Source: Lachnospiraceae bacterium
GTDB taxonomy: Bacteria > Bacillota > Clostridia > Lachnospirales > Lachnospiraceae
Direction of reading: 5' to 3'
DNA: 39,837 bases
Assembly (NCBI GenBank): GCA_017622795.1
Contig: JAGAQI010000109.1
Coordinates: 1-39,837 of the forward strand
Below the pieces are notes generated by a model. That model was given only the letters and a program-made list of their open reading frames with translations, did not search any database and was not told the DNA's origin. Shown piece after piece: positions 16,467-31,838 of this stretch. Position 1 is the first letter of the stretch. The number at the start of each line of letters is the position of its first letter. The position numbers and the translations under genes were made by a program.

Positions 16467-16527
16467 CATAAAAGAAGAACAAGTCTGAAAAATCCGCGAT
16501 TTTCTATTCCTATGTTCTTCTTTTATG
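16467..16527 (-). terminator. Terminator of the interrupted peptidoglycan-binding gene
   Basis: A perfect 15-bp inverted repeat, CATAAAAGAAGAACA (16467-16481) and TGTTCTTCTTTTATG (16513-16527). It overlaps the TAA stop of the minus-strand gene and is followed, in that direction, by a T-rich stretch. Confidence 0.6.
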
Positions 16528-17110
16528 CATACTCTGCAATTCTGCTTACTGCTACATAGATGGCGGAAATTTTGTACCAGGTGTTGAAACCCACCACGCC
16601 ATCCGGAGTTAAGTTAAAAATCTTTTGAAATTCTTGCACTGCATCCTCTGTACCTGTGCCGAATATTCCGTCCTCAGCTACTTTAGGAATCCGCGGATAC
16701 GCAGTAGAAATGACATTTAGCTGCTGCTGGATCGTGCGGACACTGTTACCACGGGAACCTGTGCGAAGTGCTGCACCCGGATAGGAGGAAGGGATTCCGG
16801 AAATTTCTTCTGTGGAATTGATATAAATGCTGTTGCCGTAAAAGTTCCGCAGAATCTGAATCGGTGTATAGCCCTGGTCACCCAGGGATTTACTGCCCCA
16901 CTGGGTCATAAGACCGGGACAGGATACCTGTCTTCCGTCACAGTATTGGGTAAGAATCGGCTGTTTGACATTCGGACGGGAAAGATAATTATTAAAAATA
17001 TTGTCTACCGCAGCATCGATGGTATCGTAGATGTTACGTTCAGGAATCCATTTATGGTCAAAAGCAGTGGAGGAGGTAATGGTGAAGTCATAACCCCGGG
17101 CACGATACCA
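16523..17110 (-). pseudogene. SpoIID-like/peptidoglycan-binding protein, 3' half (split by element)
   Basis: This is the last 195 codons of a gene whose first half lies at 31120-31811. The homologous text begins at the shared Trp codon (17108-17110): WYRARGYDFTITSSTAFDHKW. Seen: the end of a SpoIID-like domain (TQYCDGRQVSCPGLMTQWG; GYTPIQILRNFYG) and a C-terminal peptidoglycan-binding domain (LRTGSRGNSVRTIQQQLN; EDGIFGTGTEDAVQEFQK). Only a GTG at 17120, inside element DNA, opens the frame, with no ribosome binding site, so this half is probably silent in the integrated state. Joined with the other half it gives an uninterrupted 424-residue protein. The SpoIID relationship points to spore or wall metabolism. 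Confidence 0.9.
17106..17110. other. Attachment core, left junction (attL)
   Basis: TACCA. Left of it is the 3' half of the interrupted gene; right of it is element DNA containing ACCAC (17118-17122) and ATTCGGG (17125-17131), the right half of the reconstructed attP palindrome. Confidence 0.88.
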
Positions 17111-17253
17111 CGAGGCGACCACAAATTCGGGATAGAGTTTCTATCACAGAATGCTATCTTATCAGGTGGAAATTCAAGAAGCACAATGGTCGTTATGCAG
17201 GAATTGGACAAGCCGAGAAGATAATTATGGAGCCAGTGGAAAAAGCAGGCTAA
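17111..17253 (+). other. Alternative 3' coding tail of the recombinase in the excised form
   Basis: If the element circularises, the recombinase frame crosses the core (codon ACC, then A|CG) and runs 47 more codons to TAA at 17251-17253. The tail starts TRRPQIRDRVSITECY and includes IRWKFKKHNGRYAGIGQ, and is basic. In the integrated form this stretch has no upstream start and is untranslated. The open frame and the terminator 56 nt further on support it being the native 3' end. Not proven to be expressed. Confidence 0.65.
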
Positions 17254-17308
17254 GGATATTTTGGAAAGATAGATTATTATTGTTAAGATTATGTGGTAGT
17301 AAATGAGT

Positions 17309-17352
17309 AAAGCCATAACCTTAAAGCAGTTTGCTGTGGGCTATGGCTTTTT
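17309..17352 (+). terminator. Terminator near the left end of the element
   Basis: AAAGCCATA (17309-17317) pairs with TATGGCTTT (17342-17350), with an inner AGCA / TGCT stem and a T-run on the plus strand. In the circular form it would end the recombinase transcript. In reverse it may end the methylase-like gene. Confidence 0.7.
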
Positions 17353-17372
17353 CTATGTACTTATATATAGGA

Positions 17373-18665
17373 CTACTCGTTTGTAACAGTTACAGGGGAA
17401 ACTTCAGCCTTTGGAAATAAAAGGTCTGTGGTTTCTGGTGTCCATTGAATCTGTCTGTCAGGTGAATAGTGCTGATTGCTAATCATGAGTTCAGTGTCCT
17501 GCTCCAATTGAACCTGCTCAAAGTGATAACCCTTATTAAAAAAGAAAAGTCCAAGCTTCTTTTTAATAATTTCATGTGCTTGTATAGTATTGTAACGCTT
17601 GTCTGATTTAGGAGCAGAGCTACGGCAGTAATATATGAATGGGTACTTTGCTTTTTCAAGCTTTGCGGAAACCTTGTGGTGGAAGCTGTTGTAATCGTAA
17701 TCTTTAATTCCACATTCCTTTTCACTTCCAATGTAAGGGACATCTAATAAGACAAGTTTATTTTCTTCATTCTCTAAATAGGAAAGACAATCCTCCTGTG
17801 TAATTGTAGCATTGCAGGTAACCAGCTTGGCATGAGCAGGGAGAAAGCCGCCAAGTCTGCGAAAAATCTTGTCTGATTGCTCGATGAACTTTTTATCAAT
17901 GCATTGAAGAATGAAGGTGTATACAGCAATTTCTACATTGCAATCCACCTTATGATAGTTGCGGCGGTTATCTCTATATGTTTCCGTAGCTTCTTTGTAA
18001 ATTCTTCTTTGTGGGTTCATGGTGTCAGGAGTATTGATAAAGGAAAAGTCAATGCTCAAAATTCCCTTAATTAGCTCTAATGGCTTCTTCAACAGTACAT
18101 TTAGAAAATTAGTTCTTAATGGATTTAGGTCATTAAGAATAACTTTTTTCCAAGGATGATTGTAAGTGCCGAAGAAGAGAGAACCTGTGGCACAACAAGC
18201 ATCAACGAAGGTCATCTGCTCTGTATGCAGATTCATATTTTTAATTGCTGTTGCAGTAGCCTGTTGCATATCTGTATTCTTGTACCCAATAATTGTGTAA
18301 AGAGGGTAGATTCTAGACATATAGTTATCCAAATTCATTTCTAAATAAGATAAAATGGCTAGTTCAAGTAGTTGTGAAGGATTACTGTTTTTATATATCT
18401 GTGATAATTTATCTTTCAAGGCGTTGTGAACCTCAATAGTTTTGCAGTGTTTGCTGTGTTCTGGATTACTGCCTAGGTCTGTATGTAGAAATACAGTATC
18501 TGGGTATATTTTTTCTTCGCTGATAAGTAGCAGCATGAGAAGCACCAGAGTGCAGTCAGTATCCATGCAATGCTCTGCAAATATGGAAGGAAAATCTTTC
18601 TTTAACTTTTCTTTGGCTTTCTGCCATAGTTCCATGTTGATTTTAAATTTAATATCTTTCTTCAA
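17373..18665 (-). CDS. D12-type DNA adenine methylase-like protein
   Basis: A 430-residue protein from a TTG at 18665 that has GGAGGG 10 nt upstream; an ATG at 18758 gives 31 more residues but has no binding site. The SAM-binding motif reads FVDACCATGSLFFG (about 153-166), corresponding to FxExFxGxG of Dam-like D12 enzymes, followed by VILNDLNPLRTNFLNVL. The catalytic motif is LLDVPYIGS (308-311 DVPY) instead of DPPY. Methylation of N6-adenine is the family role; the changed proline and unusual motif I leave activity uncertain. No cognate restriction enzyme is visible, so it would be a solitary element methylase for self-protection or regulation (inference). Confidence 0.65.
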   Translation of the reverse strand: MKKDIKFKINMELWQKAKEKLKKDFPSIFAEHCMDTDCTLVLLMLLLISEEKIYPDTVFLHTDLGSNPEHSKHCKTIEVHNALKDKLSQIYKNSNPSQLLELAILSYLEMNLDNYMSRIYPLYTIIGYKNTDMQQATATAIKNMNLHTEQMTFVDACCATGSLFFGTYNHPWKKVILNDLNPLRTNFLNVLLKKPLELIKGILSIDFSFINTPDTMNPQRRIYKEATETYRDNRRNYHKVDCNVEIAVYTFILQCIDKKFIEQSDKIFRRLGGFLPAHAKLVTCNATITQEDCLSYLENEENKLVLLDVPYIGSEKECGIKDYDYNSFHHKVSAKLEKAKYPFIYYCRSSAPKSDKRYNTIQAHEIIKKKLGLFFFNKGYHFEQVQLEQDTELMISNQHYSPDRQIQWTPETTDLLFPKAEVSPVTVTNE

Positions 18666-19332
18666 TATTTTTGAACCCTCCTTGATGGTTATTTTTGAAA
18701 AGAGTTCACGGAAACTATAGGATGCCGTAGATGGGGCAGATTGCATAGAAAAAAGCATTAGAACATGAGGTTTGGCATCAGAACGCAGTTTTTCCGTGAA
18801 AATTTATTAAAAATAGCCAAGATTAATGGGCTTTTTACACGGAATAGAAAAGACAGATATTCAAATGTTTTACAGCTTGCAGATGAAGTAAATGATATGG
18901 AAAAGCGACAAGAGGCTTTATAAATGGTGCAGATTAGGCAGAAAGTGTGAATGAGATAATGGTAAAAAAGGCAGCAAGCATTTTAGAAAAAGCGGCAGAT
19001 TTTCCGACAATGTAAATGAAGAAAGATTACCTCAAAGCGGTAGTGATTAGAAAAATTGCATTAAATTTAGGGGCAATTCACGGGAGGATTTTTGGAAAAA
19101 TGGCAGTAGCGATTATGCTTTTTTTCTCAAAATTCCCAACACTATTTTTAATAATAGCCCTGATTGCGATACCAGATGAGTAGAGTATTATATAGAAGAT
19201 GGTGGTAAACGCATATATAATTCTTTTTCAGACAATGAAAAACAATAAGATTTATTTTAGAACTTTGAGATGAAACTTATATAATTTAGAGAAGAAGTAG
19301 TACAACAAAACTCTTCCTCTCATGTGGTGGCA
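18666..19332. other. Gene-poor stretch with short doubtful reading frames
   Basis: No gene of normal size. Two short plus-strand frames can be read: 18765-18923 (52 residues, MRFGIRTQFFRENLLKIA..., no ribosome binding site) and 19016-19183 (see the separate entry). The rest is AT-rich with many stops in all frames and looks like decayed or regulatory DNA. Confidence 0.4.
19016..19183 (+). CDS. Possible small membrane protein (55 residues)
   Basis: MKKDYLKAVVIRKIALNLGA followed by a hydrophobic stretch (MAVAIMLFF...PTLFLIIALIAIP, about 29-52) and a TAG stop. The basic N-terminus and one or two membrane helices are plausible for a small membrane peptide. No ribosome binding site is visible, so this is weak. 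Confidence 0.25.
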   Translation: MKKDYLKAVVIRKIALNLGAIHGRIFGKMAVAIMLFFSKFPTLFLIIALIAIPDE

Positions 19333-19500
19333 AAATGCAGACCGCCAAGTCAGTAATTCATTGTCAGTACCTTTGTATCCTCTGATTGGCTGTCTGCATT
19401 TGCAGGATATAGTCTTATGTCCAGTTGCTGGGTGATACGCATGGGTGCAGGATATTCAGGCAGTACCCAGCGTATTCGCCCGTGGGCATCCATATCCTGA
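19333..19500 (+). ncRNA. Structured leader RNA candidate upstream of the 19537 gene
   Basis: A long hairpin pairs 19333-19353 with 19382-19401 (AAATGCAGAC / GTCTGCATTT at its base). Downstream, GCTGGGT (19427-19433) can pair with ACCCAGC (19465-19471), or GATACGC (19434-19440) with GCGTATT (19470-19476): mutually exclusive choices. AGGATAT (19449-19455) can pair with ATATCCT (19492-19498). The structure ends 20 nt before AAAGGAG. It has the look of a switching leader or replication/copy-control RNA; no known class was recognised. Confidence 0.45.
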
Positions 19501-19536
19501 TACACCGCCAAATAATATGCAAAGGAGACTATATTT

Positions 19537-20133
19537 ATGTTGTTATTATCACATTATCTAATTGATTATCTAAGTACAGAAGCTGTTGAACACAGCAAAG
19601 TGGTGGCGGATTTTACGCAATCATTGGCAGTATATGAAGATTTCAAGCCTGACCAAGTTGAAGATGAAAAGACAGGGCTTGCTTATGACAAAGCTGTGGA
19701 GAGTATGAAGGAGTGGTTGCGAAAAGCAATGCTGGTATATATGGCAGAAGCTCATATCTATACACAATCCAGCGTGAACCTGATATTACCAAGTGGTGAA
19801 CTTTCACTTGAAGTTCTCGCCGATACTGCTAAAAGTCAACAGGATGGAGGCTATTATGAAGAGGCTGAAATGGTAATGACGCCTATTGGTTACATGAATT
19901 ATGCTGTCTATTCTTTCATAAGGGATGTAAAGGTTAATCCTGTGCGTATGTTCTATGAGCATCTTGCAAAGTGCGTGAACAATATGCACCATATACTGAT
20001 AATGAAGGGAGCGGATGAGCTGTTTTTGAGTAAGGAATTATTGAAAGACAATGCCATTCAAGACCCTTTAGATATTCAGCGGATTGCCTTTCTAATGGAG
20101 GCTGTACCGCAGTTCTTCAGCGAAACAGTATAA
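19537..20133 (+). CDS. Element protein of unknown function (198 residues)
   Basis: AAAGGAG stands 9 nt before the ATG, so translation is well supported. The protein is soluble, acidic and helical (LIDYLSTEAVEHSKVVADF; EEAEMVMTPIGYMNYAVYSF), with no catalytic motif recognised. It follows the structured leader and precedes another unknown gene by 18 nt, suggesting a two-gene unit ended by the terminator at 20644. Function unknown. Confidence 0.7.
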   Translation: MLLLSHYLIDYLSTEAVEHSKVVADFTQSLAVYEDFKPDQVEDEKTGLAYDKAVESMKEWLRKAMLVYMAEAHIYTQSSVNLILPSGELSLEVLADTAKSQQDGGYYEEAEMVMTPIGYMNYAVYSFIRDVKVNPVRMFYEHLAKCVNNMHHILIMKGADELFLSKELLKDNAIQDPLDIQRIAFLMEAVPQFFSETV

Positions 20134-20151
20134 GTGTGTGAGGTAGTTGCT

Positions 20152-20589
20152 ATGGCGGAATTATTACAAGGCAGGATTCGTGTATTAAAGCATTTTGAGT
20201 ATAAGATAACAGGTGTCAATAGATATGGCTTCAAGCGAGAGGTCACGATAAGTCCTACCCACCAGATGGAAACATTCTCTTTCAGGGATACCAATTTCAG
20301 GTTCCAGATAGACAAGCAGTTGTATATCCTTAATTTTAAGGATTTGGATATGACGAAGATTATTACACCGACACGATATATTCCAGAGCTTGCTAACCGC
20401 AGAGACAAACATATCTTGTTAGCCATCTATGATTTGATTGCTGAGGTGTCCGTGTATAAAGCAGGCTTGTCGGAAGAGTTGGACTTGGAGGCATTGAAGC
20501 GGAGGTATGGTAGTTGCTATGATAATGTCAATCTTGATGTAGTGGTAGCCAATATAGAAAGAGCAATCCAGCCTATTGGGGTAAAATAG
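20152..20589 (+). CDS. Element protein of unknown function (145 residues)
   Basis: The ATG at 20152 is chosen because GAGGT stands 7 nt upstream; a GTG at 20134 touches the previous stop and has no site. The N-terminal half is beta-rich (RIRVLKHFEYKITGVNRYGFKREVTISP) and the C-terminal half helical (LLAIYDLIAEVSVYKAGLSEELDLEALKRR). Not recognised. Confidence 0.65.
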   Translation: MAELLQGRIRVLKHFEYKITGVNRYGFKREVTISPTHQMETFSFRDTNFRFQIDKQLYILNFKDLDMTKIITPTRYIPELANRRDKHILLAIYDLIAEVSVYKAGLSEELDLEALKRRYGSCYDNVNLDVVVANIERAIQPIGVK

Positions 20590-20643
20590 CAGGCAGATGT
20601 TTCTTCTGCCGAATGTGGCGAATTAAATATAGATATGGGAAAG

Positions 20644-20677
20644 AGAACTTGCAATGCAGATTGTAGGTTCTTTTTTT
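20644..20677 (+). terminator. Rho-independent terminator
   Basis: A 12-bp stem with wobble pairs (20644-20655 with 20660-20671), GCAG loop and a seven-T run. It closes the 19537-20589 unit. From here to the promoter at 20982 no gene is seen; one further hairpin, CGGCA / TGCCG, lies around 20906-20921. Confidence 0.8.
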
Positions 20678-20981
20678 CGTGAAAAATGCAAGATAGATTG
20701 TGTTTGCTTTAGGTTTCTTGGAAGTGTAGATGTAAAAGTGGTATTTGGCATAAGAAATGCTGAGGTATATTACACAAGGTTTGAGCGACTCCATTCGTGA
20801 GCAAAGTAAGAAAATACAAAGCGTCAAGCGAGTGCAGAAAATAGGTATAGTTGTGTGGGATGAGATTTTTCAATGATTCGTAATGTTTAGGGGGTACGCC
20901 AAAGTCGGCAGTAGAATGCCGGTGCAGACGATAAAAATTATTAAGACAGCATAAGTTTTTGAGATACTTTCCAAGACACGC

Positions 20982-21009
20982 TTGACTTGTGGGAGATACC
21001 TGTTAAAAT
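20982..21009 (+). promoter_or_regulatory. Promoter for the 21045 gene
   Basis: TTGACT (20982-20987), 16-nt spacer, TAAAAT (21004-21009), 36 nt before the ATG. Confidence 0.65.
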
Positions 21010-21044
21010 ACACACAAAAATTTTCTTGGAAAGGAAGTGTTTAT

Positions 21045-21320
21045 ATGCCTACGCTCAAGCAGATAGTAAAGGCTCATCCAAACTGTTTTATTTTGGTGGC
21101 TCCAAACCTTCGAGATGCTCTGTCAAATAAGCCAAAATCTTTTAAAGTGTTACAGACAACGCTTACCACGGATTCTTGTGAAAAAGCTCTAGCTTATTAC
21201 GAGGCTCATGGATTTGGTAATGTGGTAGCTCTACCAAACTTTAGTGCCAAAGGCAGAGCACCTGAACTGCCGCCTCGCCATGTAGCAAAATTATTCAGAG
21301 TGCTTTACGGCAGGGAGTAG
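21045..21320 (+). CDS. Small element protein of unknown function (91 residues)
   Basis: The ATG at 21045 (MPTLKQIVKAHPNCFILVAP) follows GGAAAGGAAG; an upstream in-frame ATG overlaps the promoter and is rejected. Basic, compact alpha/beta sequence ending in RHVAKLFRVLYGRE. It has its own promoter and a terminator directly after, so it can be expressed alone, as with element control or antirestriction-type small proteins, but nothing in the sequence identifies it. Confidence 0.6.
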   Translation: MPTLKQIVKAHPNCFILVAPNLRDALSNKPKSFKVLQTTLTTDSCEKALAYYEAHGFGNVVALPNFSAKGRAPELPPRHVAKLFRVLYGRE

Positions 21321-21334
21321 TTTAATGTGTCATG

Positions 21335-21366
21335 GGACTCGTCAGCTTGGCGAGTCCTTTTCTCTT
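21335..21366 (+). terminator. Rho-independent terminator
   Basis: GGACTCG (21335-21341) and CGAGTCC (21351-21357) followed by TTTTCTCTT. It lies between two element genes and argues against a start for the next gene at 21325. Confidence 0.8.
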
Positions 21367-21387
21367 AAGGTGAAAGGTGGTGGTAGT

Positions 21388-21792
21388 GTGGCTATAAGTG
21401 ATGCTTTGTATATGGAGCTACTTAACAAATTGGTAAAGGCGGTTAAGAAAAATCCATCTCGTGTGGCTGAATTGAAAGAAGAATGCGTAAAAGAATTTGC
21501 TAACTTTGTCAGAAAGCGTCAACAGGATGTGATAATTACAATGCTGACAAGGCTGTATTCGCATAATTATAATGCACTCAAAAGGGATGCAGCAATGATT
21601 TCCCTGATGGAGCTTAAGAAGGAAGCTTCAAGGGAAGAACGCCTGACTTTACTTACAGTATTATGGGGAGCGATAGGAATATACTTCAAGGATGATTACT
21701 CATTCCTGATAAACGAATGCCAGCGAGTTATAAATTTTCATGAAAGCTGTGGCGAAGGTGGAGAGGATTTGGAAGATTTGCCTTTTGTATAG
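21388..21792 (+). CDS. Element protein of unknown function (134 residues, GTG start)
   Basis: The GTG at 21388 (VAISDALYMELLNKLVKAVKK) has AAAGGTGG about 8 nt upstream. An ATG-type start further up would lie in the terminator hairpin. Strongly helical, charged protein (KRQQDVIITMLTRLYSHNYNALKRDAAMISLMELKKEASREERLT region, about 46-90) ending in an acidic tail. Not recognised. Confidence 0.6.
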   Translation: MAISDALYMELLNKLVKAVKKNPSRVAELKEECVKEFANFVRKRQQDVIITMLTRLYSHNYNALKRDAAMISLMELKKEASREERLTLLTVLWGAIGIYFKDDYSFLINECQRVINFHESCGEGGEDLEDLPFV

Positions 21793-21934
21793 GGCTTGGG
21801 GTATCGCTTGCTCCTGCCTTTCTATGGCATTGGGGCTGTTCTTGGGTGTACCTGCTTTTATTGTGGCTGTCGAATTATTTTGTGGAATTTTGTGCAACTA
21901 TGTGGCAACGAAAAAATTACTTTGGTGGAAGTGA
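21740..21934 (+). CDS. Possible small membrane protein (64 residues)
   Basis: Overlaps the end of the previous gene in another frame. The middle is hydrophobic (GIACSCLSMALGLFLGV; AFIVAVELFCGILC) and could form two membrane helices with a basic end KKLLWWK. No clear ribosome binding site at the ATG; an internal TTG after GGAAG is an alternative start. Moderate to low support. Confidence 0.4.
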   Translation: MKAVAKVERIWKICLLYRAWGIACSCLSMALGLFLGVPAFIVAVELFCGILCNYVATKKLLWWK

Positions 21935-21943
21935 AAATAGAAC

Positions 21944-21973
21944 TTGACACACCTCTTTGGAGTATGGTAATAA
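21944..21973 (+). promoter_or_regulatory. Promoter of the DUF262 operon
   Basis: TTGACA (21944-21949) with TAATAA (21968-21973) after 18 nt. It drives 22062-23953. Confidence 0.6.
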
Positions 21974-21999
21974 CACACACAACCAAAAACAAACAATTT

Positions 22000-22038
22000 C
22001 GCAAAGCTACTGAAATTCAGTAAAATCAAGGCTTTGCG
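22000..22038 (+). promoter_or_regulatory. Leader stem-loop before DUF262
   Basis: CGCAAAGC (22000-22007) pairs with GCTTTGCG (22031-22038), with an inner ACTG / CAGT stem. It ends 5 nt before the AAAGGAGGT binding site, so it may affect translation or mRNA stability. Confidence 0.5.
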
Positions 22039-22061
22039 GTGCAAAAGGAGGTATATTTTCT

Positions 22062-23321
22062 ATGCAGAAATCTACATTGCCACAAGGCATCAAGACGTTA
22101 CGAAATTGGAGAGACAAGGGCATCTTGACCTTTGACCATCCAATACAGCGTTCCACTGGTCAGTGGTCATTGTTACAAAAGAGCTTATTGGTTCACTCTA
22201 TGATAGCAGGATATCCCATCCCTAATTGTTACTTCTTAAAAACCAAGAATGACAATGGAGATACAGTTTACTCCTGTTTGGATTCTAAACAACGTCTTAC
22301 ATCTGTTTTTGAATTTATCGAGGAAGATGGCTTTGCTTTACATTCAGCTACGCCTACTGTGCGATATGATGGCTTTGAATATGATTTGGCTGATACAAAG
22401 TTTGTTGACTTGCCTGAGGAACTGAAAGATGAAATATTAGGGTACAGGCTTAGTATATTTTGTCTTGAGGATTGCAGCGATGAGGAAGTGGAAGAAATCT
22501 TCGCCAGATTAAATAACAGCACTCCGCTGTCAGCAATACAGAAAACAAGGAGTGTCATTGGGAGTGATATGGCTCGTTGGTGCAAAGAGATTTGTAATTC
22601 TGAATTTTATCAGCATTCCGTGAATATGACACTTGCTCAGATTCGCAGAGAGGCTGATTTGGAAACATTACTCCAAGCTATGTTGCTCTTAGATTCCAGA
22701 CATGAAGGCTATGACGAGTGGAAGGCTATCTCTACAGCAGAGGTAACGAAATATTGTAGTTACATCAGGGGCTGTTACAATGAGGATAAGCGTCTTATGA
22801 TGGAGGAAATTATTACTTATCTGTCAAAAGCATTTCCGCATCAGCATAAATTCCTAAAGAAATCCAATGTTCCAACAGTTATTGTGTTGGCAAAGCTGGC
22901 TTTGGAAAATGAAATTGAAGCTGAGGAGTTCAAGCGATTTATAGATGCTTTTAGTAACAGTGTATGTCCTGCATTTGAGGAGTGTACAGGCTCAGGTAAT
23001 GTGAAACGTTTCAAGACAGAAGGTAGACTTGTAGCTATGGCAACTGCGATGGAAGAGTATTTCAAGTTGGAAGATTTGAGAGTTCTTTCAATCTCCGGGG
23101 TAGATCCAGAGGAAGCAACGGAAGTTGCTAGTAAAATTGCAATGGACGAGGAGGCTGTAGAAGAAGTTGTTGCAATCGTCGAGGAAAGTGACGAGGCTGA
23201 AATGGAAGGTGCAGAAATTGTAGAAAATACAGAGCTTCTTGATGAGGGTACAAGTTCTGATGTGCTTGTTGAAACTGCGATGGAATTTTCTTCGGAAGAG
23301 GTAGAGCCTGATGGAGAATGA
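22062..23321 (+). CDS. DUF262-domain protein with acidic tail
   Basis: A 419-residue protein with AAAGGAGGT upstream. The N-terminal ~170 residues carry DUF262 hallmarks: PIQRSTGQWS (27-36, for the usual YQR..vW), an LVHSMIAGYPIPNCYFLK strand-helix unit, and CLDSKQRLTSVFEF (74-78 DSKQR for the usual DGQQR), then IFARLNNSTPLS. DUF262 is a ParB/sulfiredoxin-like nucleotide-binding fold found in GmrS/GmrD modification-dependent restriction and other defence proteins. Here it stands alone, without the DUF1524 HNH nuclease half. The last ~60 residues are very acidic (EEAVEEVVAIVEESDEAEME), DNA-mimic-like. Likely a regulatory or anti-defence/defence role on the element (inference). Confidence 0.75.
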   Translation: MQKSTLPQGIKTLRNWRDKGILTFDHPIQRSTGQWSLLQKSLLVHSMIAGYPIPNCYFLKTKNDNGDTVYSCLDSKQRLTSVFEFIEEDGFALHSATPTVRYDGFEYDLADTKFVDLPEELKDEILGYRLSIFCLEDCSDEEVEEIFARLNNSTPLSAIQKTRSVIGSDMARWCKEICNSEFYQHSVNMTLAQIRREADLETLLQAMLLLDSRHEGYDEWKAISTAEVTKYCSYIRGCYNEDKRLMMEEIITYLSKAFPHQHKFLKKSNVPTVIVLAKLALENEIEAEEFKRFIDAFSNSVCPAFEECTGSGNVKRFKTEGRLVAMATAMEEYFKLEDLRVLSISGVDPEEATEVASKIAMDEEAVEEVVAIVEESDEAEMEGAEIVENTELLDEGTSSDVLVETAMEFSSEEVEPDGE

Positions 23322-23718
23322 TAAGTATATACTTGCATATTTATTGCGTGTTGGCGAAAATGGTCAGCAGTATAAGGGCTACTTTGCGGAACTTGAAAAT
23401 TCTCTGAAGGCTGAACAGCAGTTAGTGGGTGGGCGTATTACCACCTATCCATTGAGTGATGAGATAGACATTATTTCATGTGATGATGCTGTTGCTAAAT
23501 ATATGAAACTTAATCGTGCGTTGTATGATTTGCAGGGTAATTTCATAACTGCTTTTCTTGGGAATATTATGGTAGTACGACATAAGGGTGACTGCTTTAC
23601 GAGTATCAGATACGAGGATAAGGAAATCATTGAAAAATGCCTGAAGCCAATTGAGCGTATTTTTGCAGGTCAGGTATTTCTTGCGGATGCAGATTCATTA
23701 CTAAAGTGGGAGGGGTAA
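23311..23718 (+). CDS. DUF3846-like protein
   Basis: 135 residues; the ATG at 23311 overlaps the DUF262 gene end by 11 nt and follows GAGGT, indicating coupling. The text LVGGRITTYPLS, MKLNRALYDLQGNFITAFLGNIMVV and CFTSIRYEDKEIIEKCLKPI corresponds to the DUF3846 pattern (LVGG-I...; NRALYD..G; G-FFI; FTSL). The domain occurs on plasmids, conjugative elements and phages of Firmicutes with no known function. Confidence 0.65.
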   Translation: MENDKYILAYLLRVGENGQQYKGYFAELENSLKAEQQLVGGRITTYPLSDEIDIISCDDAVAKYMKLNRALYDLQGNFITAFLGNIMVVRHKGDCFTSIRYEDKEIIEKCLKPIERIFAGQVFLADADSLLKWEG

Positions 23719-23722
23719 AACA

Positions 23723-23953
23723 ATGGCACAGCCAATTGATAAGAAGGCTTACTATTCCATGAGATATCCTCACGGAACTGTGGTGGAATTAACTGCACCG
23801 ATAGAGGATGCATATTCCCCTAAACCTGTCGGGGCTAGATTCAGGGTGGACTTTATCGATGATATGTTCCAACTACAGGGTAAATGGCTACCGCCTGAAA
23901 ACGGCAGTATTGCGATTATTATTGAACATGACAAATTCAAAATTGTGGAATAA
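23723..23953 (+). CDS. DUF4314-like small protein
   Basis: 76 residues, with GGGAGGGG before the ATG. YPHGTVVELTAPIEDAYSP, PVGARFRVDFIDD and a 'W..enGS' strand resemble DUF4314, a small beta-barrel common in element gene sets next to DUF3846. Third gene of the DUF262 operon. Function unknown. Confidence 0.6.
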   Translation: MAQPIDKKAYYSMRYPHGTVVELTAPIEDAYSPKPVGARFRVDFIDDMFQLQGKWLPPENGSIAIIIEHDKFKIVE

Positions 23954-23957
23954 CAAA

Positions 23958-24004
23958 AAAGTGGTTGAAATCCTCTGAAAGTTAGGAAGTCAGCCACTTT
24001 ATTG
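23958..24004. terminator. Bidirectional terminator between convergent genes
   Basis: AAAGTGGTTG (23958-23967) and CAGCCACTTT (23991-24000) with A/T-rich flanks on both sides. It separates the DUF262 operon from the XRE gene, whose stop codon lies in the right arm. Confidence 0.65.
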
Positions 24005-24235: not shown

Positions 24236-24280
24236 TATAATTCACCTCAAGGTAAAGTGTAATAGATAAATTAAAAAAGT

Positions 24281-24340
24281 GATTCCAAAATAGACCCAAA
24301 TGTGATATAATGTTGGGTGTCATTCCAAAATAGACTCAAA
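24281..24340. promoter_or_regulatory. Divergent promoter with duplicated XRE operator-like repeats
   Basis: GATTCCAAAATAGACCCAAA (24281-24300) and CATTCCAAAATAGACTCAAA (24321-24340) are direct repeats exactly 40 bp apart. Between them is TATAAT (24306-24311), the -10 for the plus-strand cargo gene, with TTCCAA (24283-24288) inside repeat 1 as its -35. On the minus strand TTGGAA inside repeat 1 can serve as -35 for the XRE gene (TATTAC 18 nt on). Bound repressor would cover both promoters. Confidence 0.7.
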
Positions 24341-24366
24341 AGACAAAGAGAAGGGTGGAAAATATT

Positions 24367-26001: not shown

Positions 26002-26059
26002 GGCAAGGCGGAGCATTAATACAAGAGTGGTATTTGCCTTGGATGCGAAGGAGATTATT

Positions 26060-26347
26060 ATGAATTACTTTGATTATGATGGATTTCGTAATTATTATTT
26101 AGCAAAGTCTAAATTGCCAAAGAAACAGGCTTTAATTCAGGACTTTTGGCAGGAATGGATAGATAAGTTTGGCACAAGTAGTAGTTTGACTTATGTATGC
26201 GGAGTTTCTGTAAAGTACATTAGCGACTTGTGGAAAGCACCAAATAAAAAAGACTTGAAAATTAAGTTGATTTCAAGAGGCTATTCTGACCAAGCTATAG
26301 AGAGTTTGTTTAAGTGTTTTACAGACTGGCTTAAGGCTACAAAATAG
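26060..26347 (+). CDS. Element protein of unknown function (95 residues)
   Basis: The ATG at 26060 has AAGGAG 8 nt upstream. A small basic helical protein (DYDGFRNYYLAKSKLPKKQALIQDF; LIQDFWQEWIDKFGTSSSLTY), probably soluble. It follows the large cargo gene by 58 nt and precedes a strong terminator, so the two form an operon under the XRE-controlled promoter. Not recognised. Confidence 0.6.
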   Translation: MNYFDYDGFRNYYLAKSKLPKKQALIQDFWQEWIDKFGTSSSLTYVCGVSVKYISDLWKAPNKKDLKIKLISRGYSDQAIESLFKCFTDWLKATK

Positions 26348-26360
26348 TAAAAATTTATAT

Positions 26361-26398
26361 AAGCTCTGTGGGTTCTTGTAGCCTGCGGAGCTTTTTTC
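26361..26398 (+). terminator. Rho-independent terminator
   Basis: AAGCTC...GAGCTT with additional GG/CC pairs and a TTTTTT run; it ends the XRE-controlled cargo operon. Confidence 0.8.
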
Positions 26399-26417
26399 TC
26401 TATGGGGAGGTGATATT

Positions 26418-26684
26418 GTGAAATTAAAGGATTTGCTTCAAAGATTTTGTGAGGAGCATGGCAACTATAAATATTGCTCTGCTGTTGATAAAGCTGTTTG
26501 TGATGATGTAAATTGCGTTGGTATCGTTGTAAGCAAAGGTGCATCTTACATGGAAATGCTGATGGAACTTACAGCGTTTCTGACCACAGAGGGGTATACT
26601 GATTTTGCCTGCGAATTGGAGTGTGCTTCGGTGGCAAGTTGCGGAGAGGATAATGTCGTGATTTTTCTTAACGCTGAAGCATAA
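26418..26684 (+). CDS. Small cysteine-rich element protein (88 residues, GTG start)
   Basis: GTG at 26418 with GGGGAGGTGAT just upstream. Cys residues at CEEHGNYKYC, CDDVNC and CELECASVASC give seven cysteines in 88 residues, in pairs that might bind a metal. Starts KLKDLLQRFCEEHG. Not recognised. Confidence 0.6.
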   Translation: MKLKDLLQRFCEEHGNYKYCSAVDKAVCDDVNCVGIVVSKGASYMEMLMELTAFLTTEGYTDFACELECASVASCGEDNVVIFLNAEA

Positions 26685-27569
26685 TGTTCACTTATTTGTT
26701 ATGGGTATCACTTGCTTGTCTGTAGTCAGACTTTTGCTGTCGTGATTTGTTGGGGGTGAGTGTAAAGTGGTTTGTTTTGAGTCTATATAGGTTGTTGGCA
26801 TTTTTATTCTTTGTCTTTATCCAATTTTTTATGTTTTGATTTTTTATTGCTTGTAGAAATACTCACTTACCACTTCCAATTTGATTTTGCTTGTTTAGAG
26901 TTATTTTGATATGTTGCCATCAGAGAATGCCGTGAGTTGTGCGCTTTTTCTTTGCCCCACTTTTCTGCGTGTAAAAATTGTGTGTGCTTTTTTCTGAAAA
27001 AAGCAACGGAAAATACAAACGCTATTATAAAAATGCTTGTTTTAGCCTGAAAATAGGGGCTTTTGAAAAAAATAAATAATTGGTGGGTGTGTGCTTTTTT
27101 TCTGTCTTGGGGTTGTGGATGATTTATAAGCGTGCTGTTTCTGCGATTGTAGCATAACCACCAAATTAGCCCCTGCAAATTCGTCACTTTATCCCTTGAA
27201 TTGATTCTTTGCAAATGTTATAACACACACCAACCGTTCGTAAAGCTGTCAAAAAGTTCATTTCTTTCGTATTTGCCCATTTAGCCCTTTTATGGTGCTT
27301 GTGGCAAATACCTTGGCTGGCTTCGAAAAAAGCCGACACGGGGCAACACACGCTGTCACTTTTGGCTCGGTGTTGGTTTCCGTCTTTTCCTGCGGAGCTA
27401 CTGGCTCGGTACTGGGGAGTTCGGAATACCATGGATTGGCGAACTATATGATTTCGGGCTGAAAAATGGTTCGAATAAGTGTCTGTAAGGAGTTTGCGGA
27501 GGTTCGTGTGGTGTATGGACTTTTACGGGCGGTTTGAAATCAAATATTTATGGAAAGGTGGCGTTATTT
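26685..27569. other. 885-bp region without a convincing gene
   Basis: AT-rich, T-rich on the plus strand. It contains a hairpin GCTTTTTTC / AAAAAGC (26986-27004), and a short duplicated GGCTCGGT (about 27363 and 27411). A minus-strand frame around 27270-27430 reads a Pro/Thr/Glu-rich peptide (SELPSTEPVAPQEKTETN) ending in KGLNGQIRKK, and could be the remnant of a larger protein. It could hold an origin (replication or transfer) or decayed genes; nothing decisive is seen. Confidence 0.35.
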
Positions 27570-28175
27570 ATGCAGAGCAAACAATTTGGCTATGCAAGGG
27601 TTTCTACTTCTCATCAGAACACTGATAGGCAGGTAGCTGCTCTTGTGGAGTATGGAGTTGAAGAAAGGGACATCATAGTTGATTATCAAAGTGGTAAGGA
27701 CTTTAACAGAAAAGGATATCTTTCGTTAAGAGATAATATGCTTCGCTCTGGCGATACATTAGTATTCAGCGAACTTGACCGCATGGGTAGGAATAAAACC
27801 ATGATTAAAGAAGAATTGCAGTGGTTTAAGGCTAATGGCATTAGAGTAAAGGTATTAAATATTCCGACAACGCTTATTGATATCGAGGGGAATGATTGGG
27901 TGCTTGAGATGGTCTCTAATATTTTGATAGAGGTTTTGTCTACCATAGCGGAAGAGGAACGTGTGAAGAACCATCAACGACAAGCAGAAGGCATTGCTTC
28001 GGCAAAGGCTAAGGGTGTAGTCTTTGGTAGACCTACGGTGAAGAAACCTGAGAACTATGAGAATATAATGCAACGGGTAACCAATGGAGAGATTACTGCT
28101 GTTCAAGCGATGCAACTTATGGGCATTCACAAAACGACATTCTATAAGTTGAAAAAATTGTATTGGAAACAGTAA
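27570..28175 (+). CDS. Small serine recombinase (resolvase/invertase family)
   Basis: 201 residues; the ATG at 27570 has AAAGGTGG 8 nt upstream. FGYARVSTSHQNTDRQ carries the catalytic serine (about Ser11), FSELDRMGRNKTMIKEEL the conserved arginines, and a C-terminal helix-turn-helix (ITAVQAMQLMGIHKTTFYKLKK) binds DNA. Family members resolve cointegrates or invert segments. It is a different type from the large recombinase at the element end, so it probably does something other than integration, e.g. dimer resolution or an internal inversion. No inversion repeats were found nearby. Confidence 0.9.
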   Translation: MQSKQFGYARVSTSHQNTDRQVAALVEYGVEERDIIVDYQSGKDFNRKGYLSLRDNMLRSGDTLVFSELDRMGRNKTMIKEELQWFKANGIRVKVLNIPTTLIDIEGNDWVLEMVSNILIEVLSTIAEEERVKNHQRQAEGIASAKAKGVVFGRPTVKKPENYENIMQRVTNGEITAVQAMQLMGIHKTTFYKLKKLYWKQ

Positions 28176-28232
28176 AGAATTTTGCCATCGGATAACATGG
28201 TATTAAATTTATTTTTTTGGAGGTGTATTTTA

Positions 28233-28655
28233 TTGTATCAGTTAAAGAATTGGGTTTTGTATTTATGGAATGAAAGACATGGTGTTGCTTTTGGAATGGT
28301 TTATAATAATCCAAGGTTTCCACAAGGACATGAGATTCAAACTTCTGTGATAGAAAAAATAGTGATTGAGGAAGAACAGGGACAATTATGTATTGTTACA
28401 CGCTCAGGAAGTCATTATTGTTTGAAGTTTTCAGAAATGAACTTTGATGCCATTGAAAAAATAAGAGCTTGTTTGGCTGTGTATAATATTTCTGCGGAAA
28501 TTTTTGATAAATGCGTAGAATGTATACAAAGGTATAAGAAAGATGCATTAAAAGAGGTAATTTCAAAACTACATGGAGAGGGATTGTTTACTCCTGATTG
28601 TGTCGAGGGAGAGTCTGCACATTTAGATTTTGACGAGGAGGGTATTGATGAATGA
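28233..28655 (+). CDS. Element protein of unknown function (140 residues, TTG start)
   Basis: TTG at 28233 is preceded by GGAGGTG with 9-10 nt spacing; the ATG 51 nt upstream has no site. Beta-rich N-terminal part (LKNWVLYLWNERHGVAFGMVY; IEKIVIEEEQGQLCIVTRSG), then helical, ending in an acidic tail (FDEEGIDE). Its TGA overlaps the next ATG (ATGA). Not recognised. Confidence 0.6.
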   Translation: MYQLKNWVLYLWNERHGVAFGMVYNNPRFPQGHEIQTSVIEKIVIEEEQGQLCIVTRSGSHYCLKFSEMNFDAIEKIRACLAVYNISAEIFDKCVECIQRYKKDALKEVISKLHGEGLFTPDCVEGESAHLDFDEEGIDE

Positions 28656-28978
28656 GTAAGCAATTGATTTCTGTGCAATTTTATGTGCCTAGGGTTAATA
28701 ATAAAATGGAGAAGATTGAGTATAGTGCCTACCGGGAGGAATTATTGGCTATGCTGAAATCACAGGGGGTATCAGACGTTAAAAGCTTTATTGAAACGAA
28801 GCAAATTGATGATATCTGCTTCGAAGAGGAGCTTTTGAATCTAAAGTGTAATGCTCTTGTTGTACAAGGGTTGGTAGATGAATATAAACGATTAGTTACA
28901 AAATATCATGCTGTGTTTAAACATAATTTTTATGTATATAGGATTGGAGATACAAGTCATACTTTTTGCCCTGAATAA
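28652..28978 (+). CDS. Element protein of unknown function (108 residues)
   Basis: Starts within the ATGA overlap of the preceding gene, so it is translationally coupled and likely works with it. Mixed alpha/beta text (LISVQFYVPRVNNKMEKIEY; YREELLAMLKSQGVSDVKSF). Strong terminator 20 nt after. Not recognised. Confidence 0.6.
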   Translation: MSKQLISVQFYVPRVNNKMEKIEYSAYREELLAMLKSQGVSDVKSFIETKQIDDICFEEELLNLKCNALVVQGLVDEYKRLVTKYHAVFKHNFYVYRIGDTSHTFCPE

Positions 28979-28999
28979 TAAAACAGCGATATGTAGATT

Positions 29000-29044
29000 A
29001 TCCAACGAAAAGTCCTAATGAAGGATGCTTCGTTGGATATTTTT
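29000..29044 (+). terminator. Strong Rho-independent terminator
   Basis: Perfect ATCCAACGAA (29000-29009) / TTCGTTGGAT (29029-29038) with ATTTTTA following. It isolates the recombinase operon from upstream genes. Confidence 0.85.
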
Positions 29045-29155
29045 AAATTACAATCTGCCTGATGTCCTCCAAGTATGCAATATGCTTTTACTTTTGGCGG
29101 TAATGGCTGTTTTTCCCTAAATGCTTTCATTTCAAGTGAAGCTGTAATCTGGGGA

Positions 29156-29192
29156 ATACGCAGTATCAATTTTGCGGGAGGATACTGCGTAT
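29156..29192 (+). promoter_or_regulatory. Perfect 12-bp inverted repeat over the start of the recombinase operon
   Basis: ATACGCAGTATC (29156-29167) and GATACTGCGTAT (29181-29192) flank a 13-nt loop that contains the GGGAG ribosome binding site. The last two stem bases are the AU of the start codon at 29191. As RNA it could hold the start region in a hairpin; as DNA it is a candidate operator. Confidence 0.7.
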
Positions 29193-29424
29193 GTGTGCAA
29201 GTGACAAGCCAAGAAGGAATATAAATGCTAAGATGGAGCATTTAGAAGGTGAAATCATCGAAACAGGTATGAGTCAGGTAGTTCAGTGTATTAATAATGG
29301 GAAATACACGTTTACGCTTCAGTATGAAAATACGAAGCCAGAAGATGATGAAGAGATTAATAATGATATAAAATCCATTATGTTATCTCTTATCTTAAAT
29401 ACTTTAGAAAAGGAGAGTAAGTAG
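29191..29424 (+). CDS. Small recombinase-associated protein (77 residues)
   Basis: GGGAG lies upstream of the ATG inside the inverted-repeat loop. The gene ends 1 nt before the large recombinase start, so the two are coupled. Pattern: a short strand region (QCINNGKYTFTLQYENTK) followed by an acidic/basic helix (NDIKSIMLSLILNTLEKESK). Size and place resemble the small proteins that accompany TnpX-like recombinases; it might be a directionality factor (inference). The start lacks a second candidate, so this call depends on the hairpin's site. Confidence 0.55.
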   Translation: MCASDKPRRNINAKMEHLEGEIIETGMSQVVQCINNGKYTFTLQYENTKPEDDEEINNDIKSIMLSLILNTLEKESK

Positions 29425-29425
29425 T

Positions 29426-31150
29426 ATGCAGGATATGTTACGAGTAAGAATTTTGCTTCGTGTTTCTTCTACGGGGCAGTTGGATGCAGATGGTGACTTG
29501 GGAACACAACGCGCCATTGTACTTAATTATGTGAAACAAATGGCAGGCAATGGCTGGGTCTATGATGAGGCAGACCCTGCTTCGGAGTACTATGAAGGAG
29601 CTAATTCAGGCTATAAAAATCCTGTGGAGAAGCGAGAGGTTCTTCAGCAGATTAAACGGGATGCGAAGAAGAAGCAGTTTGATATTTTAGTGTGCTATAA
29701 GGATGACAGAATTGGTAGAAAGTCTGACGAGGTTCCTATGTATATAAAGGAACTTGCAAAGTATGGCGTAGAGGTTTATACAGTAAAGGATGGTTGTATT
29801 ACTCCTCATAATCGTACAGAGGCGTTAATGAACTCGATTCGTTATTGGCATGCGGAGGGGAGTAGTGAGGATACTGGTCAGAGAGTAAGGGATACCGCCA
29901 TTGAGAACGTGAAAAAAGGGCGTAACATGGGTGGTAAGGCTCCGTATGGTTATACCTTGGAATTTTCAGGGGAACTTAGCAAGCATCAAAGAGCTTTAAA
30001 GAAGAAGGTAAAGGTTCCTGAGCGTGTTAAAATTGTATTGAAGATTTATGACTTGGCTATTACAAAGGGGTATGGGGCATTTAAGATTGCAAAAATCTTA
30101 AATGAAGATGAATACTATAGAAGCATGGCACCTAACGGAGAGCATTGGAGAACTGGGACTGTAGGTGATATTTTGAAAAATCCAATCTACACGGGCTATG
30201 AAGCGTATAATAGGCGTACCCATACAGGGGAGTCACTTACACGTCTTAGCAGAGAGGAATGGGTGCTTTCTGAGGTTTGTAATGAAGAATTAAAGATTAT
30301 GGAGGTAGAATACTGGGAAAAGGCACAGGTAATCCGCGAGAAGCGTAAGTCTGTGATAGATGCCCGTGTGGAGGTGCATAGGGAAAGAGATGGTTATGTT
30401 CCGCAGAGTACATCTGGTAGCCTGCCTCTGATTGATGTGGCATGTTGTGCCTGCTGTGGAAGAAAGCTTACTAATGGCAGTAAATATAATTATTGGACTA
30501 CGAAGGATGGAGAGCATCGTAAGAGTCTGGTGCGCTATTATAGATGTCAGACTAAGCATGCGGCTACTCCATGTGAGGGGATTGGAAATGTCAGAGCAGA
30601 TGATTTGGAAGAGGTAGTATATGGCTTTGTAAAGGAGTATCTTGGTGTACTTGAAGATAATTCTATGGTGCTTGAAAAGGTGAAGGCAACTAGGAATTTA
30701 GAGCGTGAAAACGACAAGCGGCGTTTGAAGAACCTGCAGAAGAAGGTTAAGGATATTGAGGAAGATACAAAGACGCTACAGGAGTTCCTGCCTAAGGTAT
30801 TAAGAGGGGAAATGCCTCTTTCCATCGAAATGTTTCAGGAGCAGTTAAATGGCATGGAGGTAAAGCGTAAGGCTGTACTTGAGGAAATGCATACATTGTC
30901 TGTTAAGATTGCCAATACAAAGGAGGCGGAGCTTCAGACAGAACAGCTGCTGTGCCAGCTTCCTACATGGAAGGATGTGTTTGATAAGGCGGATTATGCT
31001 ACGAAGCAGATGCTGGTAAACAGATTGATTGAGAAGGTGGAAGTGTCGAGAGACAGTGTGAAGGTGTGCGTGAGAATTAACCTTGAGGAGTTTTTCTCCC
31101 GAATGAGTGGTGGTTTTCCTACCATTCCGTGTAAACCCGGTTCAGCGTGA
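29426..31150 (+). CDS. Large serine recombinase (element integrase/excisionase)
   Basis: 574 residues in the integrated form. AAAGGAG stands before the ATG. Resolvase catalytic domain about 6-155: LLRVSSTGQ with the nucleophile serine (Ser14), YKDDRIGRKSDEV arginines. Recombinase domain about 165-290 (GKAPYGYTLEF; ILNEDEYYRS; GDILKNPIYTGYEAYNRR). Zinc ribbon about 338-383 (CCACCGRKL, RCQTKHAATPCEG), then a long coiled coil (about 415-510). These are the parts of TnpX/SpoIVCA/phiC31-type enzymes that recombine attP with attB by paired dinucleotide exchange. The last eight residues (IPCKPGSA) are encoded by chromosomal DNA beyond the core; in the circular form they would be replaced by a 47-residue tail. 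Confidence 0.95.
   Translation: MQDMLRVRILLRVSSTGQLDADGDLGTQRAIVLNYVKQMAGNGWVYDEADPASEYYEGANSGYKNPVEKREVLQQIKRDAKKKQFDILVCYKDDRIGRKSDEVPMYIKELAKYGVEVYTVKDGCITPHNRTEALMNSIRYWHAEGSSEDTGQRVRDTAIENVKKGRNMGGKAPYGYTLEFSGELSKHQRALKKKVKVPERVKIVLKIYDLAITKGYGAFKIAKILNEDEYYRSMAPNGEHWRTGTVGDILKNPIYTGYEAYNRRTHTGESLTRLSREEWVLSEVCNEELKIMEVEYWEKAQVIREKRKSVIDARVEVHRERDGYVPQSTSGSLPLIDVACCACCGRKLTNGSKYNYWTTKDGEHRKSLVRYYRCQTKHAATPCEGIGNVRADDLEEVVYGFVKEYLGVLEDNSMVLEKVKATRNLERENDKRRLKNLQKKVKDIEEDTKTLQEFLPKVLRGEMPLSIEMFQEQLNGMEVKRKAVLEEMHTLSVKIANTKEAELQTEQLLCQLPTWKDVFDKADYATKQMLVNRLIEKVEVSRDSVKVCVRINLEEFFSRMSGGFPTIPCKPGSA
31120..31124. other. Attachment core, right junction (attR)
   Basis: TACCA. On the element side GTGGT (31107-31111) and CCCGAAT (31098-31104) form the left half of the attP palindrome; on the chromosome side the 5' half of the interrupted gene continues. 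Confidence 0.88.
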
Positions 31151-31811
31151 AGGATAAAATAGCCAGGATGTTGGCATAAATGGTGGATTCCGGCCAGGTG
31201 GCATAGATTTCGCTGGAGGCAACGTTTTTGATGTAGTCACGATAACGGACGGTATAATTCTTTGCATTACGGTTATTCGGTGTACCGTCGTGGACGACAA
31301 CAAACTCCGGAATAACAACACTGGGAAGAACAATTTCGCCGGAAGAAGTGTTTTCTTTTACTTCTGCCTCGGCAATTTTTGGAGGATAGGAACCGTAGAG
31401 GGTATGGTCAGGAATTATAAATTCTTCCACCGTATCCGGAAGACCGGCAGGGCTTGGGAGTAACTGTACCTGTTGTTTGGCGGTAACACCGGCTAAAATT
31501 TCTGCGCCGGAAATGCGGATTGGTTCATACCCCGGGGCAGAAATGTCCAAAATATATTCGCTGTAAGGACGTACGTCAGAAGGCGTTTGGCTTAATTCAT
31601 AGGGTGGGGCAGGAAGATTGATAAACGGGGTAAAACCGGAGGAGTCGGTGCGGAGTACTTCAACGGGGCGGGAGGGGTTATCTAACGAAGTGATGGAAAT
31701 GGTGGCTTCTGCAATCGGGAAGTTGGTGCTGATGTCAGTTAATTCCGCTTGAAAACCACCTTCTGTGTCCGAAAAAGTTTCTGTTGTGACCGGATAAATA
31801 AGACGATGCAT
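31120..31811 (-). pseudogene. SpoIID-like/peptidoglycan-binding protein, 5' half (split by element)
   Basis: 229 codons plus the Trp codon from ATG 31811 (AGGAG 6 nt upstream; MHRLIYPVTTETFSD). It contains a carboxypeptidase-regulatory/transthyretin-like beta domain (about 10-95: FQAELTDISTNFPIAEATIS; ILDISAPGYEPIRISG), a linker and the start of the SpoIID-like domain (YTVRYRDYIKNVASSEIYAT; LAILSFTLNRVYTEW). In the integrated state the frame ends in a TAG created at the junction (TGG TAG), giving a truncated 230-residue protein without the peptidoglycan-binding domain. The intact family member is a clostridial wall protein. Confidence 0.9.
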
Positions 31812-31838
31812 GAAAACTCCTAAAAAGAGCATTATGTT

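Follow-up and report, generated by a model that had tools for sequence, protein, structure and literature searches.

The 39,837-nucleotide contig of a Lachnospiraceae bacterium analysed here (JAGAQI010000109.1 of assembly GCA_017622795.1; hereafter the window, contig C78 of genome G000, a draft of 147 contigs that is 86.6% complete) carries a 14-kb intervening element in sleC, the gene of a spore cortex-lytic enzyme. It is nearly certain that a large serine recombinase (LSR) inserted this element precisely, and we propose, with a probability of roughly 65%, that it is a skin-type element whose excision in the mother cell makes sleC whole again. An earlier note on this DNA, made from the sequence alone, had described two halves of one gene lying on the same strand about 14 kb apart, and both were found on the minus strand at the positions it gave (Table 1). 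Reading across the joined halves also bore out the unbroken frame that it had predicted, in which TEW is followed by YRARGYDF; the protein has 424 residues when counted from the ATG at 31811 and 431 from the alternative start at 31832. Removal of the element from this sporulation gene would therefore leave one open reading frame, as it does with skin-type elements.

The note had called the gene SpoIID-like and peptidoglycan-binding, and these domains are present, but by homology the gene can be named more closely and is sleC. An intact homologue from another genome of the genus aligned to pre-pro-SleC (PDB 9h68) over residues 23-427 of 429 with an E value of about 1e-131, and the two halves in the window each matched that homologue separately. 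A pre-pro region, a SpoIID-like domain, a C-terminal PG_binding_1 domain (in the 3' half in the window) and homology over the full length were all found. NCBIfam gave no SleC match above its cut-off; the name therefore depends on the match in the structure database. A query with the 5' half found a single copy in G000. In Clostridioides difficile, sleC is transcribed in the mother cell from a sigma-K promoter (PMC3789822, PMC5025042) and pre-pro-SleC is processed by YabG (PMC10747680).

Both junctions bear the shared core TACCA reported in the note, and just inside the element ends, nearly equidistant from the core, lie the inverted arms ATTCGGG and CCCGAAT, in the manner of a serine-integrase attP. 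By reading, the arms are centred on the GT of TG(GT)A on the gene strand, and the short core that they surround is identical to that of attB, as reconstructed from the window flanks and the congeners. The note had proposed a comparison with relatives lacking the element. TEW and YR were contiguous and in frame in 27 of the 29 rows of homologous loci examined; of the other two, L007 was contiguous once the right frame was used, and L017 (genome G035) was itself interrupted at the same point. The fit of the two halves is therefore no coincidence. Genomes of the same genus carried sleC whole through the junction, and because the junction text is contiguous in relatives we take the gene to have been whole before insertion. 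Presence and absence of the element at this site both occur within the genus. Targeting of a tRNA gene was considered and rejected (ARAGORN finds zero tRNA genes in the window).

Table 1. Features of the split sleC gene and of the intervening element in the window
Feature	Position	Strand	Remarks
5' half of sleC (pre-pro region with the first part of the SpoIID-like domain; ends LNRVYTEW, then in-frame TAG)	31122..31832	-	89% identity to G001 SleC residues 1-235
sleC 3' half (YRARGYDF onward to C-terminal PG_binding_1 domain)	16523..17110 (start approximate)	-	92% identity to G001 SleC residues 231-429
att core TACCA (TGGTA on gene strand), 3'-half junction	17106..17110	.	putative crossover dinucleotide AC at 17107-17108 (GT on gene strand), placed by arm symmetry
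att core TACCA, 5'-half junction	31120..31124	.	putative crossover dinucleotide AC at 31121-31122
ATTCGGG arm of attP at the left end of the element	17125..17131	.	read from sequence
CCCGAAT, inverted arm of attP at the right end of the element	31098..31104	.	read from sequence
Whole intervening element, 14,014 bp between putative crossover points	17107..31120	.	
LSR, 574 aa, Resolvase + Recombinase + Zn ribbon	29426..31150	+	last codons antisense in sleC; site-A clade member
77-aa open reading frame, candidate recombination directionality factor	29191..29424	+	one base upstream of LSR
Small serine invertase/resolvase (phrog_125)	27534..28175	+	
DUF262/GmrSD_N-like protein (PADLOC NsnA 77 bits; phrog_2598)	22062..23321	+	possible defence cargo
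DNA methyltransferase-like protein	17373..18758	-	weak matches (phrog_56, MTase_II); no Pfam match
HTH_3 regulator	23999..24235	-	

The recombinase at the right end of the element has all three Pfam domains over their cut-offs within its 574 residues; its frame is open and its 3' end crosses the junction, so that the element has its own recombinase at the junction, as skin-type elements do. If the circle were closed (17113-17253 with 31119-31150), the LSR frame would continue for 46 codons past the junction codon at the opposite end, an extension that is not distinguishable from chance; since the frame runs through the junction, the C-terminus of the LSR may differ between the integrated and the circular form.

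The interruption recurs across the family. With the SleC protein of G001 as the query, sleC was matched in 255 of 397 Lachnospiraceae genomes; 45 genomes, namely 44 with weak best scores and G000, were searched again, and their loci were retrieved and the junctions read, the search for splits covering these 45 and the strong full-length matches of the first survey being taken as they stood. Element sequence was found at one or both junctions in 33 of these 45 genomes, that is, in 33 of the 255 sleC-bearing genomes (about 13%). The splits fell at three positions: 12 at that of the window, near residue 236 (site A), 19 near residue 303, at WMT|QWGS (site B), and two near residue 175 (site C). 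The retrieved sequence contained an LSR in 30 of the 33 splits, and in 28 of the 33 the distance from an LSR to a sleC half was no more than 250 bases; no LSR was seen in the retrieved sequence of G355 (main copy), G204 and G173. Twelve of the 45 genomes were not counted: in G115 and G139 the halves meet contig ends only, in G078 the contig ends at site B and a split is unproven, G246 has a frameshift, and G107, G117, G128, G141, G187, G192 and G337 showed no junction or no split. In the twelfth, G171 (L138/L139), sleC is interrupted near residue 100 by an insert whose two ends are matching inverted repeats and which resembles an insertion sequence rather than an LSR element. Two genomes from outside the family, G049 (site B) and G058 (near site A), are not among the 33. 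Further sleC-like genes cut at site A or B were seen at L183 (G355:C64, 2871-5981), L184 (G205:C8, 5938-6819) and L182 (G262:C27, 2-271).

As a control, the sporulation gene spoIVA (PF09547) was matched in 258 of the 397 genomes, over the cut-off in 256; clearly weaker best scores were seen in G069, G246 and G313, and two matches in G233, G246 and G313. The control model spans a shorter stretch than sleC, and the control loci were scored with their sequences unread. Because its matches were mostly single and strong, splitting does not seem to be a general trait of sporulation genes in these drafts.

Sites A and B are each served by a dedicated recombinase family. A tree of 48 LSRs set all 19 site-B enzymes apart by a branch with support 100/100 and all 10 site-A enzymes by a branch with support 87/86, and the two site-C enzymes did not group. 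The site-A codons (TGG|TAT) are used by their family in 12 genera of the survey. A-type LSRs (E up to 1e-40) were found in 14 of the 397 genomes, ten of them within the surveyed site-A splits; that of G355:C64 is flanked by the parts of a second sleC-like gene, that of G262 is directly next to a piece of sleC that breaks off at site A, and for two weaker ones (G152 and G203) a sleC part was absent from the stretches retrieved. The closest solved relative of the A-family profile is YokA, the SPbeta integrase, which we take to be the enzyme also called SprA.

When named genomes were scanned with the site-A family profile, the best 80 of 112 relatives represented 79 loci, and in 77 of these a sleC half cut at site A lay at most 9 kb from the LSR; in the other two the sequence ends 36 and 21 bases past the LSR match. 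Commensal isolates whose genomes have the site-A architecture include Sellimonas caecigallum SW451, Mediterraneibacter catenae SW178, Hespellia stercorisuis DSM 15480, Schaedlerella arabinosiphila DSM 106076 and Faecalicatena orotica (loci L317, L315, L358, L363 and L381). The LSR was in sense at the C-terminal part in 42 loci, antisense at the N-terminal half in 27, in sense near the N-terminal half in four and elsewhere or unseen in six. Both halves fell within the retrieved sequence in 25 loci, with elements of 2.7-7.4 kb, a range biased low because the flanks were 6 kb. These small A-family elements were found through their LSR, and the retention of an LSR in them is uninformative. The C-terminal part was cut again at site B in five loci (L322, L333, L348, L350 and L364) and ended slightly beyond site B in L353 and L371, and L385 was cut near site C and at site A. 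Together with the intact congeners, the shared core, the inverted arms and an LSR that ends at the junction, the 77 loci uphold the claim of the earlier note that the insertion was a precise one by a large serine recombinase.

The window is one of the contigs that make up a draft assembly, and one may ask whether the arrangement is a misjoin, or else an old insertion that can no longer excise. Either is scarcely credible: the same architecture was found in the 77 of 79 loci and also in assemblies of one contig (G359) and three contigs (G145), the core is exact and has its attP arms, and the LSR frame in the window is open. The recurrence of the architecture in many genomes led us to reject an assembly chimera.

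A viral scan, in which 80 of 98 IMG/VR loci were kept and the first six examined (L232-L237), indicated what some of these recombinases travel in. L234, on a 68-kb contig, and L235, on a 146-kb contig, have an A-family LSR with an apparently intact attP downstream, made of the inverted arms AACCACGAAT...ATTCGTGGTT around a core that contains GAATGGTA (L234, reverse strand) or GGTACAGGAAC (L235), which is the site-A text of sleC. No sleC was present within the 10-kb flanks of the LSR in either, and phage tail families were found among the scanned open reading frames of both. In L232 and L233 the LSR is in a sleC that is cut at both A and B; L236 and L237 had no sleC half at the LSR, and L236 also lacked such arms. 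As L234 and L235 carry LSR, attP and tail genes, at least part of the A-type family moves as phages. These two contigs favour a rival account, in which a gene dispensable to vegetative cells offers phages and related elements a conserved site for integration, sleC is knocked out in the lysogen, excision occurs only on induction, and the spores germinate poorly or by other means. The variable presence of the element within the genus agrees with this account of plain integration too, which we nevertheless judge unlikely in view of the state of the split genes, the promoters of some LSRs and the co-occurrence of a split sigK, all described below.

If sleC were merely knocked out, its halves might be expected to decay, and no sign of decay was seen. 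At strongly conserved columns the deviation had a median of 0.015 and a mean of 0.023 in 37 split sets (the 33 splits with G049, G115, G139 and G078) versus 0.014 and 0.018 in 61 intact genes (p = 0.36). An in-frame stop occurred in six of the 105 halves of the 79-locus set, always at query residues 219-236, at the junction or on the element side of it. The ratio of nonsynonymous to synonymous substitution rates between the window halves and congeners was 0.014-0.081 where defined, similar to the 0.019-0.130 of intact pairs, although synonymous divergence was saturated. A pseudogene was accordingly rejected, the split halves being conserved like intact genes. The hosts also keep spoIVA (32 of 33, the exception being G204), and four site-B elements that were found through the split sleC, and not through their LSR, have shrunk to 2.4-2.6 kb and hold little besides an open LSR of 511-532 aa. 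The conservation of the halves, of spoIVA and of these LSRs speaks against plain integration and, as far as sequences can tell, fits a continued need for sleC and for excision.

The site-B lineage is found at other sporulation genes as well. LSRs similar to the site-B enzyme of G346 occurred in 66 of the 397 genomes, and 36 of these loci that are not part of the surveyed splits were inspected (L184-L200, L202-L219 and L221): 30 had parts of cotJB or cotJC, one had a sleC copy cut at site B and five had neither. In the four N-terminal ends read, cotJC was cut after SQYGG (three) or SQFGG (one), and the two C-terminal parts read begin at YGGPDG; in L198 and L209 the cotJC parts end near residue 38-40 of the downstream piece and a second LSR is present. 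The cotJB2-cotD operon of C. difficile, with its manganese catalase, is sigma-K dependent (PMC3789822). The recurrence of site-B-like LSRs at sleC and cotJ suggests that this integrase lineage favours late mother-cell genes. Two other loci are recorded here as observations in their own right. At L224 (G000:C89, 6985-9846) an LSR stands just past the end of a gene that we take to resemble spoIVB, behind recN; the frame of this gene ends GKLIGAVTHVCVNL* and seems short of the usual C-terminus. G000 may thus have an LSR at a third sporulation gene. At L190 (G123:C49, 2718-6139) a 105-aa fragment, presumably polysaccharide-deacetylase-like, is flanked by two convergent LSRs and may come from another interrupted gene.

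The sequences upstream of the LSRs were scanned for promoters, leaving out those without a usable upstream stretch (two of the 30 cotJ cases and seven of the 16 others). A strict sigma-E-like pattern (e.g. GTATTTTTT-N14-CATACAAT) preceded 3 of the 17 site-B-family LSRs in sleC and 5 of the 28 at cotJ, where shuffled sequences would give about 0.03 in each set; the cotJ set had been unread for promoters before the scan. A -10-like CATA box within 70 bases was found in 8 of 17 and 8 of 28, with 1.2 and 2.4 expected from shuffles, and the nine other LSRs had no strict pattern and one CATA box, versus 0.6 from shuffles. These promoters weigh against plain integration, and so does the co-occurrence of split sigK: a scan of the 33 split-sleC genomes found this gene split in G000, G035, G027, G235 and G258, with an LSR in each retrieved stretch. 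In G000 its parts are on two contigs (L222, G000:C31, 8166-10350, and L223, G000:C127, 6842-7129), with an LSR directly before the C-terminal part in a skin-like arrangement. Where sigK has to be rebuilt in the mother cell, sleC can be rebuilt there too. The likeness to skin elements drawn in the earlier note is thus apt, sleC being a sigma-K mother-cell gene in C. difficile and sigK being split in the same genome.

The 77-aa open reading frame just upstream of the window LSR is a candidate recombination directionality factor (RDF). Each of the nine site-A elements inspected has a small open reading frame in this place; that of the window has no Pfam match and shows only weak similarity to the rest (best E 0.14). 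In C. difficile the RDF is the mother-cell controlled component, and LSR excision often requires an RDF (PMC5025042). This requirement counts against a reversible switch, in which excision in a fraction of vegetative cells would yield a mixture of germination-competent and germination-delayed spores as a form of bet-hedging. Such a switch would find a precedent in the yin element in yabG, for which mixed integrated and excised populations are reported (PMC10747680), and the second, small serine invertase within the element of the window also speaks for it, but we regard it as very unlikely.

We therefore favour mother-cell excision, which we infer from the above and consider likely. The LSR of the element almost certainly recombined attP with an attB in sleC at the Trp-Tyr codons TGG|TAT, with GT, by symmetry, as the central dinucleotide. 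During sporulation the LSR, aided by a directionality factor (perhaps the 77-aa protein), would excise the element in the mother cell, where C. difficile transcribes its sleC. Being terminal, the mother cell could gain a whole sleC in this way and make SleC, and the forespore would retain the element. In function the sleC element would then resemble the skin and SPbeta/spsM elements, but it interrupts the gene of a germination enzyme.

Several observations weigh against this proposal. The consensus scan found no sigma-E-like pattern, strict or relaxed, directly upstream of the LSR in any of nine site-A elements, and in none of nine did the 200 bases that precede the small open reading frame contain a sigma-E/K-like pattern; the lack of a sigma-E-like promoter at the LSR and operon of the window also counts in favour of plain integration. 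The same holds for the LSRs that look damaged or short, with an open stretch of 294 aa in G074 and of 464 aa in G136 and with pieces in G327 and G233. The promoter count in sleC was not blind, because the strict pattern was written after some of the sleC cases had been read. A few split genes exceeded the intact maximum deviation of 0.076 (G049, outside the family, with 0.117, and G115, uncounted, with 0.082), and conserved halves could equally reflect young insertions. The window element itself was not seen in an excised or empty form, and its predicted circular junction was absent from the viral contigs. Finally, that G000 sporulates is something we infer from its genes, in an assembly of 147 contigs and 86.6% completeness.

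A wider scheme may also be put forward, tentatively and with more doubt than confidence. Lachnospiraceae may have a layered programme of sporulation rearrangements, in which dedicated serine-integrase elements sit in sigK and then in genes of the sigma-K regulon (sleC at up to three codons and cotJC at up to two, sometimes with two elements per gene), ordered excision in the mother cell rebuilds each of them, and the rebuilding of sleC decides which spores germinate.

Developmental excision elements in print concern sigK, spsM, spoVFB, gerE and yabG (PMC5025042, PMC4191935, PMC5595907, PMC10747680), and no report of an interruption of sleC or cotJC was found among the papers listed by searches of the open-licence literature, which suggests that the sleC interruption extends the known class of sporulation gene-intervening elements to a new target. 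The nearest parallel is skinCd in sigK of C. difficile (LSR CD1231, RDF CD1234), which is likewise LSR-borne and splits a mother-cell sporulation gene at one point, and whose excision restores sigK and needs the RDF (PMC5025042); unlike skinCd, the element described here lies in a germination enzyme gene and not in that of a sigma factor, and its excision is a prediction. The SPbeta prophage in spsM of Bacillus subtilis also has a serine integrase, YokA, and rebuilds a spore gene on excision (PMC4191935); its RDF YotN is in a solved complex with YokA (the pair appears in papers as SprA/SprB). The window element differs from SPbeta in its size of 14 kb, in its target and in showing no phage structural family among the 10 open reading frames scanned with PHROGs. 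Like gin in gerE of Bacillus cereus ATCC10987, it is a non-phage intervening element with serine recombinases (PMC5595907), although target, host class and gene content differ. The elements yin (yabG, Clostridium botulinum) and vfbin (spoVFB, B. weihenstephanensis) lie in sporulation genes too (PMC10747680); that paper describes yin as confined to a single strain, in contrast to the sleC elements, which recur in many genera at dedicated sites. Diverse LSR families that share one conserved attB in a coding gene are known from the target survey of Durrant et al. 2022, where magnesium chelatase, prolyl isomerase and competence genes are the targets named and, in the portion available, 'sporulation' occurs only in a reference title (PMC10083194).

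A key germination enzyme is thus a recurrent target, and most of the splits are due to two dedicated families of integrases. Should spores be the form in which these bacteria move from host to host, the restoration of sleC and its timing would determine which of them germinate, and the link of element carriage to spore germination is directly testable. Gene callers will report sleC as broken or missing in such genomes, and the loci supply many new pairs of integrases and att sites.

Apart from the products in Table 1, the cargo of the window element consists of unknown proteins. No phage head, tail or packaging families were found among the 10 window open reading frames scanned with PHROGs (the smaller ones of the element lay outside the scan), so that the structural genes of a temperate prophage were not seen in those 10. 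Single-protein searches of genome contigs and viral contigs with the window LSR led nowhere, as did a megablast of the element against phages and plasmids; tblastn of the window LSR against phages returned 234 records, all with less than 60% identity.

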